From: Tilletiopsis washingtonensis
Taxonomy: Eukaryota > Basidiomycota > Exobasidiomycetes > Entylomatales
NCBI RefSeq assembly: GCF_003144115.1
Contig: NW_020312003.1
Span: forward strand, 732,267-796,266
Direction of reading: 5' to 3'
Length of the DNA: 64,000 nucleotides
The notes beneath the pieces were generated by a model. It was not told where the DNA came from. It ran no database searches and saw nothing but the letters and a program-made list of their open reading frames with translations. This document shows positions 43,290 to 61,456 of this stretch, piece after piece. A program made the position numbers and the translations under genes. The first letter of the stretch is position 1, and the number at the start of each line of letters is the position of its first letter.

Positions 43290-45907
43290 CTATGGCCGCG
43301 CCTTGCGCGCGGCGCGCCGGCTCTCGAACTCGTGCCACTCGCCTTCGACACTCGCGAGCAGGCTGCGGAGGCCCAACAGCGTCAGTCTTGGATAGTAGCG
43401 ACAGACAAAGTCGTGAAGCGACGCACCCTGCAGGTCGTTGAGCGCGGGGCCGCTCAGTGGTGAAGTACGGCATCTGCAGCGCCTCGGCTGCCGATGCTCG
43501 GCGAGCGGGATCGAAGCGCAGCAGCGCAAACGCAACGGCCAGCGCTGCGGGCGGCATGGACCTGAACGAGCGGCCAGCGTCAGCAAGTACGGGCAACTCA
43601 GACGAGCGATGCGGCTCACTTCTCGAAAGCGAGCTTGAAGCGCTCCTCTGCAGTCTGCGCAGCCAATCCGTCGGATGCTGCAGCGGGCCTCACGAGGTCG
43701 TACCATGGCAGCTTCTCCGCGTCGGGCCATTCGTCGGCGGGAACGAGCGGGCCCAGCACATCGTAGATCACTGCCACTTGGTGGATCTCGTCGTTGCCCT
43801 GGAAGGCCGGACGGCGCGTGAACAGCTCGAGGAAGATGCATCTGCTCGGCGCAGATCAGCATGCTGCGCAGTGAGGCAACGACGCTGGCACTCACCCGGC
43901 GCCCCACATGTCGACCTCCGGCCCGTACTGCGTCGCGCCAAAGAGCAGCTCGAGAGGCTTGTACCACAGGGTGACGACGCGGTTCGTATAGTCGCCCTTG
44001 CGGCGTTTGGCATACATGCGCGCCAGGCCAAAATCGGCGAGCTTGAGCACGCCGGCGTTGGAGAGCAGGATGTTGCTGCCCTTGAGATCGCGGTGCAGCA
44101 CTGAGCGGCGGTGCAGGTAGGCCAGGCCCGAGAAGAGCTGTGCTGAGAGCGACTTGAGATGCGCAGGTGTGAAGGTGATGCTGGGATGCGCCAGCACGCC
44201 GTTGAGATCGTGCTCCATGTACTCGAAGACCATATAGACCGAGTCTGCGCTCTGCATCAGCACATGCAGAATCTGCTGCTCGCACGGGCGCGACTCACTC
44301 TTCGACACCATCATCTCCCACAGGCGCACCACATTCTCGTGTCTCAGGCCCTGCAGCAGCTTGATCTCGCGCATCGCCGTGACGGGAAAGCCGTCCTTCT
44401 CCGCCTCCATGCGGATCTTCTTGAGCGCCACGAGGGCGCCGCTCTTCTCGGCGCGCGCCTTGAACACCTGCCCGTACGTGCCCTCGCCGACCTGCGCGAT
44501 GCGCTCGTAGCCCTCGCCAGGCGCGGCGCGCGGCATGGGAGCCAGAGAGACGGGCGAGGGCGAGCGCGTCGCGGAGCGCGCTGGCGAGGCGGTCGGAGAG
44601 GGTGAGCGTCGCGCGACTTCGGGCGCACGCGGAGGTGTCGTCGGCCTGCCAGTCGCCGCTGCAAGCGCAGCTTCCATCGCCTTTTGCATCGCGGCGCTCG
44701 GGCCCGGCACGGCAGCAGCGGCAGAAGGCTCGTCTCGCACGACCTTCTGCTTCTCGAAAGAGCTGCTTGCTTCTTCTCGAGATGGCTCTGGGTCGCGTGC
44801 CTCGCGTGCTGCTCCTAGCAGCTCCTCTTCGCCCTTGCTCGGACTGCGGCTCTGGCTCTTGGCACCCGGGCGAATCACAGTCCAGCCTTTGCGTGTCGCG
44901 CCGCCAGCGCCGTCTCTCTGGCTCGCAGACTCTGGCCGTGCTGGCTCCGTGACAGACGCAGCCGGCTTCTCCTCCCGCACAGAAGGCGGGTTCGGGCTCT
45001 TGCGCGCCAGCAGTCGGCTGGACGCCTCTAGCGCGCTGGGCCCGAGCGGCGCCGACAGCGGCCCGCTTGGCGCGTGAGGCGCGAGTGGTGCGAGAGGTGC
45101 GAGCGGAGCCAACGGCGCCAGCGAGGAGGCGGTGGAACGCGGACCGCTTGGCGTGCCTTGCGCGGCCGCTGATGTCGATGCAGCCGGCGGAGGTAGTGGC
45201 GAAGCTGCCCTGCGCTTGACGTCGCGCGAGACCGTCGGGCTCTCGTCCCTCTCTCTCTTTGCCCGCGCTTCGCCGTTGCCGTTCGTGCTGGCGCCTGTAG
45301 GCATCTGCGGCGTATGTGACGGCTCGCTGGGGCTCTGTGGCGAGGGCGAGCCATATGATAGGCTTTGCGCCACCTGCCGCGCTGGCACAGCAAGAGCCTG
45401 CGTGGGACGCGCAGGCCGCGAGAGGACGGAGAGGGCAGAGCTGCGTGCGCTCAAGGTCAGCGAGGGCGGCAATCTTGCGCGAGAGACAACCACGCACCGC
45501 ACTGGAGGCTTGGCTTCTGCCTTCGCTTCGCTCTCCTCTGCCGCGCGTGGTGGGCGCACCCGCTCACGCTCGCGCTCTCGGTCTCGGGAGCGGTCGCGTG
45601 ATCGATCTCGCGATCTGTCTCGTGATCGGTCGCGCTCGCGCTCCCTGTCTCGCTCGCGGTCGCGCTCCCGTTCTCGCTCCCTATCTCTCTCCCGCTCTCT
45701 CCGCTCGCGCTCCCTGCTCTCGTCGCGCCGCCGGTCGGCCTCCTCTCGCGGCGGCGGCACCTCTGCGCGCCCGCGGCCGCGCTCGTGCGACGGCGCGACG
45801 GGCGAGACGTTGCGCTCGCCGCGCGGCGGCGGCACCTCGCGCTCGCCACGCGGCGGCGGCACGTAGCTGCGCTCCCGCTCCCGCTCGTAGCCGGCCCGCT
45901 CGCCCCA

Positions 45908-45943
<36 letters not shown>

Positions 45944-46225
45944 TCTTGGCGCCCAGCGGCCGCGCTGCACCCAGCCGCCTCTGCCGCGCGGCGCCTCGTG
46001 CCCACCTCTGCGGCCCCAGCCCTGCTGCTGGTGCGGCGCTTGCGCGGCAAAGCGCGAAGGCCCGGCGTGTGCGTCGGCGGGCATGCGTGACGCTGCCGGC
46101 CCTGTGGGAATGCGCGGCCGTGTGGGCGAGGCGCTGCGGCGCGACGGCCCCGCGGCGGGCGCCGGCTGCGAGGGCCCGGCGAGGTGCGGCGGCGGCGCGC
46201 GCTGCCGGTCGGGCGGATAGGGCAT
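43290..46225 (-). CDS. CTD kinase catalytic subunit (Ctk1/Lsk1, CDK12-like)
   Basis: Minus-strand exons 45498-46225, 43896-45440, 43620-43841, 43427-43561 and 43290-43362 give 900 residues. The enzyme phosphorylates Ser2 of the RNA polymerase II tail and links elongation to RNA processing. The first ~550 residues are disordered: a 12-glycine run, then about 50 residues of Arg-Glu/Arg-Asp/Arg-Ser repeats like the RS region of CDK12, and an Ala-Pro-Leu repeat. The kinase domain (about 554-860) has GEGTYGQVFKA, VALKKI, PVTAMREIKLL in the PITAIRE position, HRDLKGSN, LADFGLAR and VVTLWYKPLELLFG, then IFLELFTRRPAFQG. The C-terminus carries EGEWHEFESRR, usual for this subfamily. Exon 1 ends at a 57-nt stop-free intron (45441-45497) with a CTGAC branch. 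Converges with bfr1, 208 bp apart. Confidence 0.92.
45570..45725. repeat. Arg-Glu/Arg-Ser coding repeat in the CTD-kinase gene
   Basis: A degenerate six- to twelve-base repeat in the N-terminal part of the kinase gene encodes alternating Arg with Glu, Asp or Ser (minus strand). It is a low-complexity coding repeat and not a mobile element. Confidence 0.8.
45908..45943. repeat. (GCC)12 trinucleotide repeat coding Gly12
   Basis: Twelve perfect GCC triplets on the plus strand, read as GGC on the coding (minus) strand, give the 12-glycine run in the CTD-kinase N-terminus. A perfect repeat of this length is likely to vary in length between strains. Confidence 0.9.
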
Positions 46226-46480
46226 GGTGCCGCGCGCAGAGGGTGCGCTGCTTGGCCCGCGTGCTGAGACTGGCTGGTGGTGTGGGTGGTGGTGGGGGAG
46301 AGGATGTGCCCGAAGCAAGGAGCTGGCCGCGTCTGTGCGCCGCTCGCGGCCGCTGTGGAGCAGCGCGTGCGGCTGACGTAAGCCCAAAAAAGCGCTGACC
46401 ACTTGACGATGCTGCGACTCGAGGCCGACATGCTCGCCCGGCCTGCTTCCTGCCCACCTGCACCCCAGCGACAGCCCGCC

Positions 46481-49400
46481 ATGTCGCTGCCTCTCTCACG
46501 GCACATCCTGCGCAGCGGCCCACGCACGCCTGCCGCCGCACTGCGCGCCGCGCTGCACACGGCGCCGCCCAGCTGCCGCAGCGCGCCCGGCCCCTCGGCC
46601 GCCTCCACCAGCGCTGCCGCGCACCACTTCGTCTCCTCTGAGCCGCCTCCGCGCCGCGAGCGCACTCTTGGCCGCGCGCCGCTGCCAGAGAAGGATGCCA
46701 TGACGCAGCAGCGCTCGCGCAGAGACGCGCGCGCCGCAAAGGGCGCCGCCGCCGCCCTCGAGCGCCGCATCCTCTCCAACAGCACGCGCCAGGGACGCCC
46801 CGTGCCGGGCGATGCCGTCGAGCTGCGCATGTGAGTGTGCGGCAGGAGGCATGCACGACGGGCGCCGCCACGCTGTGCTGGCAGGCTCGCTGCGATGGGC
46901 GCCACAGCTTTGCGCCGGCAGCCTCGCTGCTGCGTGCTGATCTTGTCCTGGCCCGCAGTCCGACGAGCTGCCTCGGCATCGTCCTGCCCATGCCCAGCAG
47001 CTCGGTCCCAGGAGCCACGCGCACGGGCACCGAGCTGTGCGTGCTGCTGCCGTGGGGCAGCATCGTCATTTTCATTGAGAACGACGTCATGCTGCGGCTG
47101 CCCAACCTCATCGGGCCCGAGCTCGCCGCGCTCGCGGCGCCGGCCGACATGGCGCACATTGTGTCCACCGAGGGCATCGACCCGACGGAGGACGCGTCGC
47201 CGAAGCGCAACGAGCAGGAGCCATTCGATGCGGCACGCTTCGGCGCGCGCAGCGCTGCCTGTGCGGCACTGCGGGCGCTGACACGCATGAGCGAGACGGA
47301 GATGCTGCGCCTGCGCCCGGCGTTCCGCGAGGTGTGTCTCAGCAAGGAGGGCGTGGCGCTCATCGAGGAGGAGGGCACGGCGTACATGCCCAGCGTCGCC
47401 TACACGATCCTGCAGCGCACCATGCAGGCCGAGGGCCACTGCTTCGCCGACGTCGCCTCGGCGCGCGTCGCGCAGCCTGTGCTGCTGGCCGTGCACCGCA
47501 TGCTCATGGACACGCCGAGCCGCTTCGTCGCCGACGACATTGCGCACCGCTCGTCGCACCGCTTCAGCCTGCGCTCGGACCGCGAGCGCGAGGCCATCGA
47601 GACGGTCGACGAGTGGGTGCGCGCGCCAAAGGGCAGCACCGAGTGGCGCAACCTGGAAGGCTTCGGCCAGCGCGCCAAGGAGGTGCTCGCCTGGCGCGCC
47701 AAGCTGGGCGGCGAGACAATGCCGGCCGACGAGCCCGAGCGAGTGGAGCTGGAGGCCGAGGCCGGGCCCGGCGTGCAGTGGCGCCAGACGGACCACGTCA
47801 TTCTGCGCTTTCTCCGCAGCACGCTCTCGACGCGCCGCTCGCTGCAGGGCTACGAGTACCTCTCCATCGCCATGGACGTGCTGAAGCGCGCGGGCGCCGA
47901 TGTCACCGTCCAGCCCGTGGCGCACCGTCTGCAGCACCCGGAGCGCAGCTTCACGGATGTGCCGCGCGACCTCGTGCCGTACGGCCGCGACACGGGCGAC
48001 GCAGGCATCGACCACCAGGGCGCGCTCGTCGTGCGCTTCCTGCAGGCCGTCGGCGAGATGCCGCCGTGGGAGGACCACGCCCTGCTTCAGGTCGGCGTCG
48101 ACTTCACAACGAACGAGCGCGACGCGCCGAGCGAGACGCCGCAGCCGACGCCCCGGCCCAAGCTGGCGCTGCACGAGGCGGAGATGGAGCGCTTCGACTT
48201 TGAGCAGCTGCCTGTGCACGTCATCGACGATCCCACGGCGCACGAGCTCGACGACGGCATCTCCATCGAGCGTGTGGCCGGCAAGGACGAGATCTGGATC
48301 CACGTGCACGTTGCCGATCCGACGTCAATCATGGACCCCGCCGACGATCTGGCGCGGCGGGCGCGGCGGCAGCACAACACGCTCTACCTGCCCGAGGGGC
48401 GCTGGCCGCTGCTGCCGGACGAGATGCTGCAGGCCGGCCGGCTGTCGCTGGGCTCCAAGAGCGAGACGGAGGAGCAGCGCGAGGAGCGGCAGAAGCACGG
48501 CCTGTGCGCGCTCACGTTCAGTGCGCGTGTGGATGCGCAGGGCAAGGTGCAGGAGTACTGCGTGCGGCCGAGCATCGTGCACAATGTGCAGATCACGACG
48601 TACGACGAGGTCAGCGCAGCGCTCGAGGTCGACGGCACCTCGGACCTGCACGTCCTGCAGCGCTTCGCCCGCGCGATGCTGCACCAGCGCGTGGCCAACT
48701 CGAGCATCGCCTCTAACATGCCCGGGCCGAACTTTACGCTCTCGCCCGTGCCGCTGCCGGGCGCGCCCGCAACGCCGTCGACGCAGACGCTCTTCCGCGG
48801 CTTTCCCAAGATCGACATTGGCATGCTGTCGCTCGAGCCGCCGGCGTGGTCGAAGGCGCAGGACCTCGTCTCCGAGTGCATGCTGCTCGCCGGCCGCGTC
48901 GCCGGCGCCTGCGCCGCAGACCGCGGCGTGCCCCTCGTGTACCGCTCGCAAGAGGCGCCCGAGGCCGCCGCGGCGGCCAAGCTGCGCGGCCTGCGCGACG
49001 AGGACGGCAACATGTCGTGGCTGACGCTGCTGCGCTCGGGCGTGCGTCTGGCGCCGGGCAACGCCTCGCACGCGCCGGCGCCGCACTTTGCGCTCGGCAT
49101 CTCGCCGGCGCTCGACGACGCCGCCGCGCACGGCGGCTATGCGCGCAGCACGTCGCCGCTGCGCCGCTACCCGGACATTGTGGCGCACTGGCAGCTCAAG
49201 GCGAGCCTGGCGGGGCGCACGGCGCCGTGGAGCCAGGAGCGCCTCGAGGCCGACATGCCGCGCATGGCACGCATGGACGCCTGGTCGCGCAGCCTCGAGC
49301 GGCGCGTGCGCTACTTCTGGATGGCGCTGGGCCTGCGGCGCCTGCTCGATGCGCCGCCCGGCTCGCTGACGCCCGAGGAGCAGGCGCTCCTCGGGCCGCT

Positions 49401-49623
49401 CGACGCCGTCGTGGCGCTGCCCGACGTGCGCATCAACCCGTCGCGCCTCGACGCACGCGTGCGCGTCTTTGTGCCGCAGCTCGGCATCAACGCCGAGTGC
49501 GGCTGGCACCGCTCCATCGCCGCCGCCGAGCTGGGTGCGCCGCTCAAGGTGCGCCTGCACGACGTCGTGCGCGCGGGCGTGCGCTCGAGCGTGATCGTGG
49601 TGCCGGAGCACTGGAATGCATAG
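46481..49623 (+). CDS. Mitochondrial RNase II-family 3'-5' exoribonuclease (DSS1/Cyt-4-like)
   Basis: Exons 46481-46830 and 46959-49623 give 1004 residues. DSS1 is the nuclease of the mitochondrial degradosome and works with the Suv3 helicase in RNA turnover. I chose ATG 46481 because MSLPLSRHILRSGPRTPAAAL is a good mitochondrial presequence; an in-frame ATG at 46409 would add 24 residues. The RNB domain is complete: IDDPTAHELDDGISIE (about 538-553, the metal-binding Asp cluster), WIHVHVADPTS, RQHNTLYLPEG, and YARSTSPLRRYPDIVAHWQL (about 843-862, with the RNA-binding Arg). The large region before RNB is poorly conserved, as in Dss1/Cyt-4. The intron (128 nt) is longer than usual. Its start is 255 bp from the divergent CTD-kinase start. 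Confidence 0.92.
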
Positions 49624-54308: not shown

Positions 54309-57300
54309 ATGGCCTCGCCGCTCTCTGCCACGCCCGGCGGCGTGCCGGGCGGCTGGGCGCCCTCGGCTGCCGCGGCCGCGACGACCTCACCCCCACGCCG
54401 CCCGCCGTCGTCGCTGGCCGAGCAGCTCTCGCCCGGCGAGTCGCTCGAGCAGCGCCGCAGCATGCAGCAGCAGCCGCGCAGCCGCGCCGGCACGCCCAGC
54501 CTCGTCTTCGGGCCCATCGGCGCACACCGCGCCGCCGCCGCCCGGCAGCGCTCCAGCTCGCCAGCCAGCGGCGCGCCCGGCAGCGGCAGCGGCGACAGCG
54601 AGCTCGCAGCAGGCAGCAGCGGCGGCGGCGGCGCACGGCACTCGTCCGGCCTGCACTCGAGCTCGCCGAGCTATGCCAGCGCTCGATCGCACCTCGGCGA
54701 CGCACCGCAGGCCGCCGGCACGCCGCGCCTCGTCGTCGACACGACATCGCCCGTGCCGGCGCACGCGACGCCGCGCACCGGCGACGAGGCGCGCGCCATG
54801 TTTGCCGAGCCCGAGGCCGACGAGGAGGGCCTCGACACGCGCTCCGCCAGCATGGTCGGGCAGCTCGTCGACGATGAAGAGGAGGCCGAACAGCAGCAGC
54901 CCGTGCGTCGTCCAGCGTCTGGTGCGTCGATGCGCGGGCAAGAAGGCAGCAGCCCGCGGGTGGACGGCAACGGGGCGGCATACCCGTTCCCAGGCGGTGC
55001 GTCGTATGCGCCGCCGCTGCGCTCGCCGTCGCTCGGCACGGCGCAGAGTCCGTTCCTCTCGCTGCCGGGCGGCGCAGCGGGCCTCGCGGGCGGCCTGCTC
55101 TCGCCGACAGCAGCCACCTTCGGCCTCGGCGGCAGCGGCGCGAGCTCGACGGGCGCGACAGCTGCGACGGCCGGCTCAAGCACGCCGACATTCTCGCCCT
55201 TTGGCAGCCCGCCGCGCGAGCGGCCGCTCACGCCAGGCAGCATGCATTCGGGCGTCGGCGGGCACCACAATGGAGGGGGCATCCCGCGCTCTGCCTCGGG
55301 CCTCAGCAGTGCGGCGCGCAACTCCAACACGCAGCGTGCTCCCAGCGTCGACGGTGCGTCGGGCTTTGGCTCGGAGCGCGGCGCACATGCGCCCTCGTCT
55401 GCCGCCGACGCCTCGCTGCGCGCCTCGCCGCTCTTCAACGACGTGCTGGAGCGGCTACTGCGGCTCGAGGTCGGGCTCAAGGACGTCAACCGGCACATCG
55501 GCGGGCTGAGCCGCAACGTCAGCCTGCTGCTCGACCGCACCAAGCATCTCGGCGGCGCCCAGCGCGGCGGCCTGCCGGCAGACGTGCACAATGCGGCGCA
55601 CGGCTCGGCGCAGGTGCAAGAAGAGGTGCGCGCGCTCAGTGCCCAGCTCAACACGCTCGCCGGCAGCGTGGCGCAGCTCTTCACGTCGCAAGGCGGCGCG
55701 CCGCCGCCGATGCCGCAGCAGCGCACGCCGTCTGGCATGAACGGCACGCCGCACGTCGGCGCCATGCAGCAGCAGCTGGCGGGCCTCGGCCTCGGTGCAC
55801 CGCCCAGCGGCACGCCGCAGCTCGGCGGCAACATCCTCACGCCGCAGCTCGGCACGTTTCCGGGCACGCCCAACCTCGGCGGCCGCACAGGCGCGCTGAA
55901 CCCCTACGAGCGCTCGGCAAGTCCGCGCACAGGCTCTGGCGGCTTTGCGCACCCGCCGCTGGACCGTGGCCTCAGCCCGCGGCCAGGTGCCAGCCCTGCG
56001 CCGAGCCAGAACCGCCTCAGCTGGGGCGCCGGCGCACCGCAACAGGCGCAGCAGAGCCTCACCGGCGTGGCCAAGGAGCACCTGGCGCCCGACGCGCGCC
56101 GCTGGGCCGCCATGAACGCCGCTGCTGCCGGAGGCAACTTCTCGCCGGCACTGGGCGGGCCCAACCGCCGCGAGAGCTCGGGCACGCCGCACATGCGCAC
56201 CGGCACGCCAGAAGTCGACTCGACGGGCCGCTTCGCCGGCGCCGGACCGGCGATGAGCGGCGGCGCGATGGGCCCGCCGGACCCGAGCGTCGTCGTGACG
56301 AAATGGGAGCACCTGAACCTGCACGGCGACCTGCTGCGGTCGATCCTCAAGTACGGCCTCGGCCCGCCGAACAAGATCCAGCAGCGCGCGCTGCCGTTCC
56401 TGCTGCGCGGCAGCGATATCATCGCGCAGGCGCCGCCGACGCAGGAGCGCATCGCCAGCTATGTCATTCCGGCGCTGCAGCAGATCCTCAACGTGCTGCG
56501 CGGCGAGCCCGTGCCGCCGGGCGGCGCGATGCGCGGGCCCATTGTGCTCATCATCAGCACGACGGTGGACCAGGCGACGCAGGCGCAGCGCATGTCGCTC
56601 GGCCTCGGCGCGGCGCTGGGCGTGCGCGTGCACATCGCTGCGGCTGGAAGTATCGACGTGGGCCAGGAGGCGGCCAACCTCGTGCAGTCGCAGCCGCACC
56701 TCGTCGTCGGCACGCCGCAGAAGATGAACGACCTCTTCACGTACCTCGCCAATCGCGGTGCGATTTCGCTGTCCGACGTGCGCCTCGTCATTCTCGACGA
56801 GGCGGACCAGCTGATTGCGCGCAACCTGGCCGACTACGTCTCGACGCTGCTGCGTCTCCTGCCGCAGCCTCGCGGCAATGCCTCGCGCGAGCCGCTCCTC
56901 TCGCCGGGCCTGCCGCAGAGCTCGGGCCCCGGGCGGCCCTTCAGTCCGTTCGACGGCGACAAGCCCGCGACGCTGGACCGCCAGACGGCCATCTTCAGCA
57001 ACACGGTGCCGCAGGACGTGCTCAACTTTGCCCAGTCGATCCACCTGCGCGAGAGCGTGCGCGTGCTGGTGCGGCGCGAGGGCGGCGGCGGCGCACTGCA
57101 GGCCACGACGACGTACGGCGCGGCCGGCGCAAGCGGCTTCTCTTCGTCACCAAGCATTGGCTCCGGCACGATGGGCCTCGGCAACAGCCACGGCAGCCAG
57201 ACGCCGCAGCTCGGGCAGCTGCAGCATCACGCGCAGCAGCAGCAGCACACGCCGCAGCTCGGCTCGTACGGCAGTGCTCCGCCCGGCACGCCGTCCAACG

Positions 57301-58179
57301 CACTGGGCGCTGCGCCGGGCAACAGCAACACCAACCCGCTGGCCGACCCGATGCTGGCGCCTCTGCGCGGCCTGAGGCAGTACTACCTGTATGTGGCCGT
57401 CTCGACGGGCCCGGCCGCCGGCCCGCCGATGGGCTACGGCGGGCCCAGCGCGCATGCCAACGAGATGAAGCTGTAAGTGCTGCGCCGGCGTCACCTTGCG
57501 CTCAGCTCACCAGGCCCCGCAGCGATGTCATCACGGACCTGCTCGAGGACATCGACTTCAACCAGGCCGTCGTGTACGTGGCGTCGGCTGCGGCGCTCGA
57601 GGCCGTCACGTACAAGCTGGCGAGCAAGGGCGTCGAGGCGATAAGTCTCGTGAGTGACATTTCGTGCTTGGCCGCCGCGCCCGCACTGACACGCGCCGCA
57701 GTCCAAGGAGATGGCCTCGACGACGCGGCAGCAGGTGCTCTCCGCCTTCCGCAGCGCGTACGGCGGCGTCTCGGCGTACCAGCAGGCGAGCCACGCCGTC
57801 GTCGGCGGGCCCGGCGGCGCCAGTGCCGGGCGCAGCGGCGGGCGCAAGGCGCTCGTGGTGCACGACCTGGCGCTGCAGGCGCGCGACGTGCACCAGGTGC
57901 CGCTCGTCGTCTTCTACGACCTGCCGCGCTCGGTGGAGGAGTACAAGGAGAAGATTGCCTGTGCGGCCGCCACCTCGGGCGCCGGACGTCCCAGCGTCTG
58001 CATCAACGTCGTCACGGGCTCCGGCGGCCCGCGCGGCGACATTGAGATGCTGCGCTCGCTCGAGCTGCACCTGGGATGCAAGATGGGTGCGTAGCGTGTC
58101 TCTGCGTCGACGACATGCGCTGACCTGAACGCCGCCAGCCGAACTGCCAATGCACCTAGGCCAGATTCTCAACTTCTAA
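54309..58179 (+). CDS. eIF4A-like DEAD-box protein with lost ATPase motifs (probable pseudo-helicase)
   Basis: Exons 54309-57472, 57523-57649, 57702-58086 and 58139-58179 give 1238 residues. Residues 1-655 are disordered Ser/Gly/Pro sequence with one predicted helical patch (LLRLEVGLKDVNRHIGGLSR). From about 660 the protein follows eIF4A: Q-region KWEHLNLHGDLLRSILKYGL then IQQRALPFLLRGSDIIAQA. The ATP-binding loop that should read SGTGKT is instead PPTQERIA. VVGTPQKM and the DEAD box (VILDEADQL, about 827) remain; SAT is FSNT. The second lobe keeps QARDVHQVPLVVFYDLPRS but HRxGRxGR is replaced by KIACAAATS. The end SVCINVVTG to ELPMHLGQIL matches the eIF4A C-terminus. Loss of both ATP motifs argues against helicase activity; a scaffold or RNA-binding role is inferred. 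It is not a decayed copy: the frame is intact over 3.7 kb. Confidence 0.82.
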
Positions 58180-59039: not shown

Positions 59040-61456
59040 ATGTCGCACGACGCGCCGTCCGGCGGCCGGCCCGCCGCGCCGCGCCGTGCCAGCTCGAACC
59101 AGCAGCAGGACTCGCCGTACGGCCGCTCGCCGGTGGTGCAGCAGATCCCGCCGCGCGTCGCCTCGCCCACGCCCGGCGGCAGCGGCGACGCCGTCGGCGA
59201 TGTGACGCGCTCGCCGCGCGCACAGCTCGCGCCGCTGCCGCTGCGCCGTACGCCGAGCGAGCACAGCGGCAGCCGCCCGCACAGCACGGCCATCAGCGAG
59301 GACGAGCATGCGCTCGACACGGCCGACGAGCCGCACGACCTCGACAGCCTGCCGATCAGCGATGCGCAGAAGGGCCGCATTGTCGAGATGCAGTGAGTGC
59401 AGAGTGGCGAGGTAGCTGCCTCTGGTGCATCGCGTCGCCCGCCTCCTGGCTGACACCTCCACAGCCTGGCGCGGCCCAACGAGTCCGGCTTCCCGCGCAC
59501 GGACAGCGTCACGGACGGCGTCGCCTCGTCGGCCGCGTCGATGACCGGCGACGAGGGCGGTCCGGGCGGTGCGGGCCCGTCGGTGCACTTCCCGGGCTCC
59601 AACCCCGCGTCAGCGTCCGCCTTTGACGAGGACGCCGACGAGTACTTTGGCCCGGCCGCGATGCAGGGCGGCGCCATCACCGACGACGTGTACCGCTGGG
59701 CGCACAACAACAAGCGCAAGATGAGCCGCCGCACGCGCAGCGAAAGCCTGCACCTGCCGCGCACCAGCACCATCGACCCCGAGCTCGACACGACGGCCAT
59801 CAAGGAGCCAGGCGGCTTCCGGTGCGTGTGCAGAACGAGGCTGATGCATGCGGCGCTGCTGACACCTTCTCGTGCAGCCGCTTCTTTGTGCTGAACCAGG
59901 CCGAGGGCCAGGGCCGGCCACGCCCGCGCGCGATGCGCTCCTTCATCGACTTCCTCGCGCTGTACGGCCACTACGGTGGTGAGGACCTGGAGGACATCGA
60001 GGAGTCCGACGATGAGGAGGACGACGAGGAGCTGGCGGCGGAGAGCGAGGGCCCTGTGGCAGGCAGCAGTCGCGACGCGACGGAGCGCACGGCGCTGCTG
60101 CGGCAAGAGAGCCAGCGGCGGAAGCTGCAGCGCTCGCGCAGCAGCCGCCTGCGCCCAGCCACCGGCGAGCACAACCGGCCGCGCGGCGAGGCGACGGTGC
60201 TCGAGGCCGTCATGATGCTGCTCAAGTCGTTTGTGGGCACGGGCATTCTCTTCCTCGGCAAGGCCTTCATGAACGGCGGCCTGCTCTTCTCGACGCTCGT
60301 GCTGTGCGGCGTGGCGATGATCTCGCTCGTGTCCTTTCTGCTGCTCGTCAAGGCCAACCTGCAGCACCCGGCGTCGTTTGGCGACATGGGCGGCATCCTC
60401 TACGGCCCGAAGATGCGCCTCGCCATTCTCACGTCGATCGTCTTTTCGCAGATCGGCTTCGTCGCCGCGTACACAGTCTTTGTGGCGCAGAACCTGCAGG
60501 CCTTCATCCTCGCCGTCACACACTGCCGCACGCTCGTGCCGACCGTGTATCTCATTCTCGCGCAGGCCGCCGTCTTCCTGCCGCTGAGCCTTGTGCGCCG
60601 CATTGCCAAGCTCAGTTCGACGGCGCTCATCGCCGACGTGTTCATCCTCTTCGGCATCGTCTACCTCTTCAAGTACGAGATCACGACGCTGCTCGACAAG
60701 GGCGTCGCCGACGTCGTGCTCTTCAACTCGTCGACCTTCTCGCTCTTCATCGGCACGGCAGTCTTCACGTTCGAGGGCGTCGGCCTCGTCATTCCGATCA
60801 CCGAGTCGATGAAGGAGCCGCAGCGCTTCCCCAAGGCGCTCACGGGCGTCATGATTGGCGTGATGCTGCTCTTCACGACGTCGGGCGCGCTCTCGTACAT
60901 GGCCTTCGGCAGCAAGGTGCAGACCGTCGTCATTACGAACCTGCCGCAGAACAGCAAGTTTGTGCAGGCGATGCAGTTCCTCTACTCGATTGCCATTCTG
61001 CTCTCGACGCCGCTGCAGCTCTTCCCGGCCGTGACGATTCTGGAGCGCGGCATCTTCACCAAGAGCGGCAAGTACAAGTGAGTAGCGCGAGGAGAGCTGG
61101 TCCTGGCGCCGTGCTGACATCTCTGCCACAGCTGGAAGATCAAGGTGCTCAAGAATGCCTTCCGCTGCTCGACGGTGCTCGTGTGCACGCTGGCCGCCTG
61201 GGCCGGCTCGGCGTCGCTGGACGTCTTCGTGTCGTTCGTGGGCAGCGTCTTCTGCTGTCCGCTCTGCTTCATCTACCCGCCGCTGCTGCACCTGCGCGCC
61301 CGCGGCTGTGCCGTGTCGCGCAAGGCGCGCATCCTCGACTACTCGATTCTCGCGTTCGGCATCGCCAGCACGCTCTTCGCCGGCAGCCAGACGATTGTCG
61401 CGCTCATCAACCCCTCGGCGCCGCCGGACGCGCCCGTCTGTCGCCCGCCCAAGTAG
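59040..61456 (+). CDS. Vacuolar amino-acid transporter (AVT3/AVT4 type, AAAP superfamily)
   Basis: Exons 59040-59392, 59465-59821, 59878-61077 and 61132-61456 give 744 residues. Avt3-type proteins export neutral amino acids from the vacuole to the cytosol. The first ~380 residues are hydrophilic and cytosolic, with an acidic run (EESDDEEDDEE) and many Ser/Arg. About ten to eleven membrane spans follow. The first carries the family motif LLKSFVGTGILFLGKAFMNG, and later parts include FTFEGVGLVIPITESMKEP (the typical E-G-x-G-x-x-x-P) and SIAILLSTPLQLFPA. The GKYNWKIKVLKN loop, split by the last intron, is also typical. The long N-terminus and single extended loop fit fungal AVT3/4, not the shorter AVT1 group. 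It converges with the next gene, 148 bp apart. Confidence 0.92.

Follow-up and report, generated by a model that had tools for sequence, protein, structure and literature searches.

Can a protein of the eIF4A group be kept by evolution once its ATP site is gone, and what might it then do? The question is raised by a gene of the basidiomycete fungus Tilletiopsis washingtonensis that lies at positions 54309..58179 (+) of a 64,000-nucleotide stretch of contig NW_020312003.1 (the window, whose coordinates are used throughout), located in contig C6 of the 18.7-Mb genome that we searched. The encoded protein very likely belongs to a family of conserved, dead pseudohelicases, with a two-lobed eIF4A-group fold that is unable to run the ATP cycle. 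As far as sequences and structure models can tell, the family has what marks this class, namely a conserved helicase fold whose catalytic motifs are lost across orthologues.

Loss and replacement of the catalytic motifs

Both lobes of the helicase core are recognizable in the window protein. Pfam matches DEAD at residues 688-904 (61.1 bits; cut-off 26) and, weakly, Helicase_C at residues 1054-1115 (23.9 bits; cut-off 23.5), no single stretch of which passes alone. A profile search against the PDB recovered human eIF4A-I (209 bits), eIF4A-III (177), yeast eIF4A (170), and Dhh1 (105), and Foldseek ranked the eIF4A DEAD domain first for domain 1. The structure model of a relative, with a predicted local distance difference test (pLDDT) score of at least 90 at 191 of 495 residues, likewise gave eIF4A chains as its first fold matches. 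By Pfam, models, and fold matches, the protein thus has two RecA-like domains in tandem that resemble those of DEAD-box proteins in sequence. The motifs of a DEAD-box protein are only partly there. Motif II reads D-E-A-D (56796..56807, +; residues 830-833), and motif Ib reads TPQKM (56712..56726, +; residues 802-806). At motif I, the GKT is gone and the protein reads TQERI, within a replaced Walker A of sequence PPTQERIA (56433..56456, +; residues 709-716); motif III is SNTVP (56997..57011, +; residues 897-901), where eIF4A has SAT; and motif VI, HRxGR in DEAD-box proteins, reads KIACAAATS (57951..57977, +; residues 1181-1189). A preliminary description of this locus had singled out PPTQERIA, TPQKM, DEAD, and KIACAAATS, and all four were found where it placed them.

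To define the family, we collected 288 distinct relatives from three protein searches, of which the best 120 of 311, 688, and 553 matches were listed. Some of these are near-identical strains or fragments, and many are unnamed metagenome proteins. Together with the window protein they form an alignment of 289 rows, 287 of which (286 relatives) fully cover motif I; clustering at 80% core identity gave 75 clusters, 74 of them covering motif I. Residues are numbered after human eIF4A1, as checked against PMC6262856.

At motif I, the replacement is uniform: E takes the place of G81, R that of K82, and I that of T83 in 287/287 rows, GK[ST] occurs in none of them, and all 74 motif-I-covering clusters read ER in place of G-K. 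A string search through the whole proteins found HRxGR at motif VI in 0 of 288 relatives; its single occurrence, in P0163, falls in a linker, off motif VI. At the position of R362, 221 of the 233 aligned rows have P or C and none has R. The losses extend further, with R110 of motif Ia replaced by V (288/289), A214 of motif III by N (253/288) or C (35/288), motif IV replaced, and the R-G of motif V lost in most rows. Pucciniomycotina carry a variant of the same pattern, reading PAIQERIQ or PSIQERIQ rather than PPTQERIA, DECD rather than DEVD, and SCT rather than SNT, and several of their members retain HRI, without GR, at motif VI. The loss of the ATP-binding and HRxGR motifs, first proposed for the window gene, thus holds both there and across its relatives.

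One could still suppose that nucleotide is bound or hydrolysed through an unconventional site, a reading favored by the retained DExD, SxT, and Q-motif glutamine. We consider it very unlikely, given that G81, K82, and T83 have become E, R, and I wherever motif I is covered and that none of the aligned rows has an equivalent of R362.

Distribution of the family and age of the loss

Among the matches listed, the named relatives are all Basidiomycota from three subphyla, save for one labelled as a fern. Agaricomycotina are represented by Agaricomycetes, Calocera (Dacrymycetes), and Mrakia (Tremellomycetes), and Pucciniomycotina by Sporobolomyces, Rhodotorula, Microbotryum, and Atractiella; Ustilaginomycotina are also present. 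The fern entry, P0008 (Adiantum nelumboides), shares 64% identity with the core of the window protein and probably reflects fungal contamination of the fern assembly. The relatives are listed under automatic names such as 'RNA helicase', 'translation initiation factor 4A', and 'P-loop containing nucleoside triphosphate hydrolase', which are misleading for a pseudohelicase family; some are also listed as 'related to TIF2'.

The missing motifs could alternatively stem from a faulty gene model or assembly, or from gene decay, and orthologues that keep SGTGKT and HRxGR had been named as the outcome that would point to an error. We found nothing in favor of this account. No intact orthologue was found among the 288 relatives collected: GKT is missing from each of the 286 covering motif I, and HRxGR from motif VI of all 288. 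The identical replacement in 286 relatives, drawn from many genomes and metagenomes and spread over the 75 clusters, rules out a single broken gene or assembly error and leaves this alternative with a negligible probability. As the loss is common to relatives in all three subphyla, it most likely dates to the common ancestor of Ustilaginomycotina, Agaricomycotina, and Pucciniomycotina.

Gene structure

The window gene itself is intact. Its four exons splice into a product of 1238 residues with zero internal stops, the length originally proposed. Exon 1 (54309..57472, +) is an open frame up to a GT donor and encodes residues 1-1054 plus two bases of codon 1055, comprising the disordered N-terminus, RecA-like domain 1, and the start of domain 2. 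Exon 2 (57523..57649, +) carries further sequence from the start of RecA-like domain 2, in a frame that continues in relatives; exon 3 (57702..58086, +) carries domain 2 with the former motifs V and VI; and exon 4 (58139..58179, +) encodes the C-terminal tail AELPMHLGQILNF and the stop codon. This tail aligns with the C-terminus of eIF4A, and the alignment with eIF4A-I extends to the C-terminal end of the latter. The three introns, at 57473-57522 (50 bases), 57650-57701 (52 bases), and 58087-58138 (52 bases), all lie on the + strand and are of the GT-AG type. The splices are supported because relatives align across the core. The best-scoring among the matches listed, a protein of Ceraceosorus bombacis (order Ceraceosorales, Ustilaginomycotina), spans the whole of residues 655-1238 at 68% identity. 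G+C by codon position over residues 655-1055 (0.70/0.50/0.92) has the pattern of a coding frame.

Conserved domain 1 and drifting domain 2

The two lobes differ in how strongly they are constrained. Domain 1 has a mean entropy of 1.08 bits, with 0.35 at motif I and 0.27 at motif Ia; equal conservation is reached by 7% (motif I) and 5% (motif Ia) of equal-length contiguous domain-1 stretches, which ranks both motifs near the top of domain 1 without making them unique, and the motif I value is perhaps somewhat too low, as the relatives were detected through shared words. Domain 2 averages 1.46 bits, and motifs IV, V, and VI stand at 2.03, 2.27, and 1.94. From the low entropy of motifs I and Ia and the high entropy of motifs IV to VI, it follows that the former phosphate pocket is fixed in a new form, while the catalytic residues of domain 2 wander. 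Furthermore, of the 42 positions that are more than 90% conserved in the family and yet unlike eIF4A1, 37 fall in domain 1. The proposal of a fungal pseudohelicase retained under selection is borne out to the extent that protein conservation can indicate selection.

Several residues of the original site have also been kept. D182, E183, and D185 of the DExD motif are present in 289/289 rows, S213 in 288/288, T215 in 287/288, and the Q-motif glutamine in 281/283; the T-P of motif Ib does not vary, and K stands in place of R161 in 277/289. The third residue of motif II is V in 250/289, C in 31/289, and A in 4/289, most relatives reading DEVD or DECD. The DEAD box noted earlier in the window protein is therefore real, but it is a rare form and not typical of the family. 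The glutamine, DExD, and SxT stay near-invariant although every member covering motif I has a replaced phosphate loop.

These kept residues, the uniformly ERI phosphate loop, and the concentration of family-specific conserved positions in domain 1 would suit a different function, in which the domain-1 cleft itself is the binding site for a partner peptide, or for an adenosine-like ligand held without phosphate chemistry, making the protein a sensor or adaptor and not a scaffold for MIF4G proteins. Against this, the conserved domain-1 residues may simply hold the fold. In eIF4A, motif VI closes the pocket; here, motif VI drifts. We rate this possibility as rather unlikely.

Phylogenetic position

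To place the family, we built a tree from 20 of its members, human eIF4A1, and 11 DEAD-box proteins of the same genome. The family resolved as one clade (support 100/100) on a long branch (0.98), beside eIF4A and Fal1 together. Within it, Pucciniomycotina (96.2/98), Agaricomycotina (99.6/100), and Ustilaginomycotina (100/100) each formed a clade, as expected under vertical descent. The approximately unbiased (AU) test retained the family as sister to eIF4A plus Fal1 (p = 0.94) and as sister to Dhh1 (p = 0.104), and rejected a sister relationship to eIF4A alone (p = 0.016) or to Fal1 alone (p = 0.0016); long-branch attraction may push the family outward in the tree. The label 'eIF4A-like' consequently stands in its broad sense, but grouping with eIF4A alone does not. 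Orthology to eIF4A is contradicted by the AU rejection, which long-branch effects may have influenced, and by the separate, intact eIF4A gene of the same genome, which keeps SGTGKT, DEAD, and HRIGRGGR.

A Fal1-like gene also lies elsewhere in this genome. The Fal1/eIF4A-III-like locus L042 (G000:C10:416300-419000) apparently has DESD for DEAD and keeps GTGKT and HRIGR, as read from merged exon pieces. No second copy of the window gene was found in a domain-1 search of the genome that scored only the best candidates. The other matches in that search were at most 40% identical, headed by a Dbp2-like protein (30%, 56.9 bits) and followed by eIF4A (33%, 50.0 bits), the first exon of which was left uncovered.

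Predicted partner contacts and function

In eIF4A1, the residues contacting eIF4G are R45, D265, E268, D296, and T298 (PMC7470955). In the family, the R45 equivalent is R in 218/240 rows, the D265 equivalent D in 286/288, and the E268 equivalent E in 124/288 or D in 154/288 (E or D in 278/288); the equivalents of D296 and T298 are replaced. The eIF4G-contacting helix has its counterpart in E-M-K-L-D-V-I-T-D-L-L-E (57462..57547, +; residues 1052-1063), which is split by intron 1 and in which D1060 corresponds to D265 and E1063 to E268. Over helix 257-268, the family has 61% weighted identity to eIF4A1, a level reached by 3% of equal domain-2 windows; the plain mean over 376 aligned positions is 31.5%. 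At the sequence level, this agrees in part with the suggested binding of an eIF4G-like partner, as the contacts R45, D265, and E268 are mostly kept and D296 and T298 are replaced. Because eIF4A2 and DDX6 are reported to compete for CNOT1 (PMC6736043), eIF4G is not the sole candidate partner. MIF4G domain matches occur at four places in the genome of T. washingtonensis.

With the ATP site lost and the MIF4G-facing helix largely kept, a scaffold role suggests itself, presumably exerted through protein-protein contact. Most of the helix by which eIF4A holds the MIF4G domain of eIF4G survives in domain 2, so the protein would be expected to sit on eIF4G or on another MIF4G protein of the CWC22 or CNOT1 type. 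The remodelled and strongly constrained cleft of domain 1 might hold a second partner or lock the lobes, and the long disordered N-terminus could gather further factors, the net result being a scaffold or brake that acts on mRNA translation or turnover without ATP. Taken as a whole, an ancient pseudohelicase acting as a scaffold is our best explanation, with an even chance of being correct; the more specific assignment of a MIF4G partner is tentative and falls somewhat short of that. More speculative, and unlikely as a complete account, is that the ATP site was rebuilt early in Basidiomycota into a pocket with a fixed QERI loop and retained Q, DExD, and SxT, which ties a MIF4G hub to another factor and so provides an ATP-free layer of control over translation or mRNA turnover.

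An RNA-binding role had also been put forward, and the protein might accordingly be an ATP-independent clamp that shields or marks mRNA. The invariant T-P of motif Ib and the lysine at R161 are in keeping with this. So are two relatives, P0080 (Amanita phalloides) and P0283 (Arthromyces matolae), whose N-terminal halves match an RRM domain, although the matches may reflect either true fusions or gene models joined to a neighbor. Motifs Ia, IV, and V face the RNA in DEAD-box proteins, and DEAD-box clamps close only with ATP. As the arginine of motif Ia has become V, motif IV is gone, and the R-G of motif V is mostly lost, RNA clamping is less likely; the proposed RNA-binding role is weakened, and we consider the clamp improbable.

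Relation to known proteins

The window family resembles eIF4A (Tif1/2, DDX2) and eIF4A-III (Fal1, DDX48) in its two-RecA fold, its best PDB sequence matches, the Q-motif glutamine, the C-terminal tail, and most of the eIF4G-contact helix. Unlike them, it lacks Walker A, SAT, ARGID, and HRxGR, has a long N-terminus and inserts, and is placed beside both in the tree and inside neither. Pseudohelicases as a class are already known, as exemplified by Utp25/Def of the small subunit (SSU) processome, which likewise combines a DEAD-box-like fold without working motifs, a disordered N-terminus, and evolutionary retention (PMC9539457). Utp25 is described as a ribosome-assembly factor without the DEAD sequence (PMC9539457). 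In contrast, the window family keeps DExD, is eIF4A-like, and is confined to Basidiomycota among the matches listed. In a Pfam scan of the window protein with E-values up to 0.001, DEAD and Helicase_C were the sole matches; the comparison with Utp25 follows its published description. In the accessible open-licence full texts, the word 'pseudohelicase' occurs in three papers, on Utp25, on PriA, and on DciA (once in the last), and few pseudohelicases seem to have been described under that name.

Similar in distribution are UMAG_05873 and UMAG_00835, which a 2025 survey of Ustilago maydis helicases lists as basidiomycete-specific, uncharacterized DEAD-box proteins. According to that survey, whose data on this point are not shown, several canonical motifs are present in their helicase cores, and STRING predicts links of UMAG_05873 to translation proteins (PMC12511879). 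Like the window family among the matches listed, they form a basidiomycete-only clade in that survey, and the translation links of UMAG_05873 recall the 'related to TIF2' names of window relatives; unlike our description of the family, the accessible account names no lost ATP site (PMC12511879). One of the two is probably an orthologue of the window gene, and UMAG_05873 would be the candidate. In the open-licence literature, covered in part and by main texts, we found no earlier description of this family as dead or as having lost its ATP site. If correct, a dead eIF4A-group protein fixed across three subphyla would amount to a natural experiment on what the fold can do without ATP, and mushrooms, smuts, and red yeasts would share a candidate factor for translation or mRNA that is specific to basidiomycetes.

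The N-terminus and the gene neighborhood

The 655-residue N-terminus of the preliminary description is disordered but not wholly featureless. With conservation expressed as the mean share of rows having the commonest residue in a 16-row alignment, a first moderately conserved stretch spans residues 371-406 (55419..55526, +), in two blocks at 371-389 (mean 0.58) and 400-406 (mean 0.51), and a second spans residues 443-459 (55635..55685, +; mean 0.60). Judged by eye, residues 371-406 may have coiled-coil character. Loose patterns from the two segments, applied without a chance control, match 101/188 and 100/188 of the relatives with a long N-terminus.

Ten frames of the window were scanned with Pfam for context; seven had no match and three had domains, with no clear functional link to the gene. 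The three encode a protein kinase domain (43892-46402, -), an RNB ribonuclease domain (46831-49623, +), and an amino-acid transporter domain (59822-61081, +).
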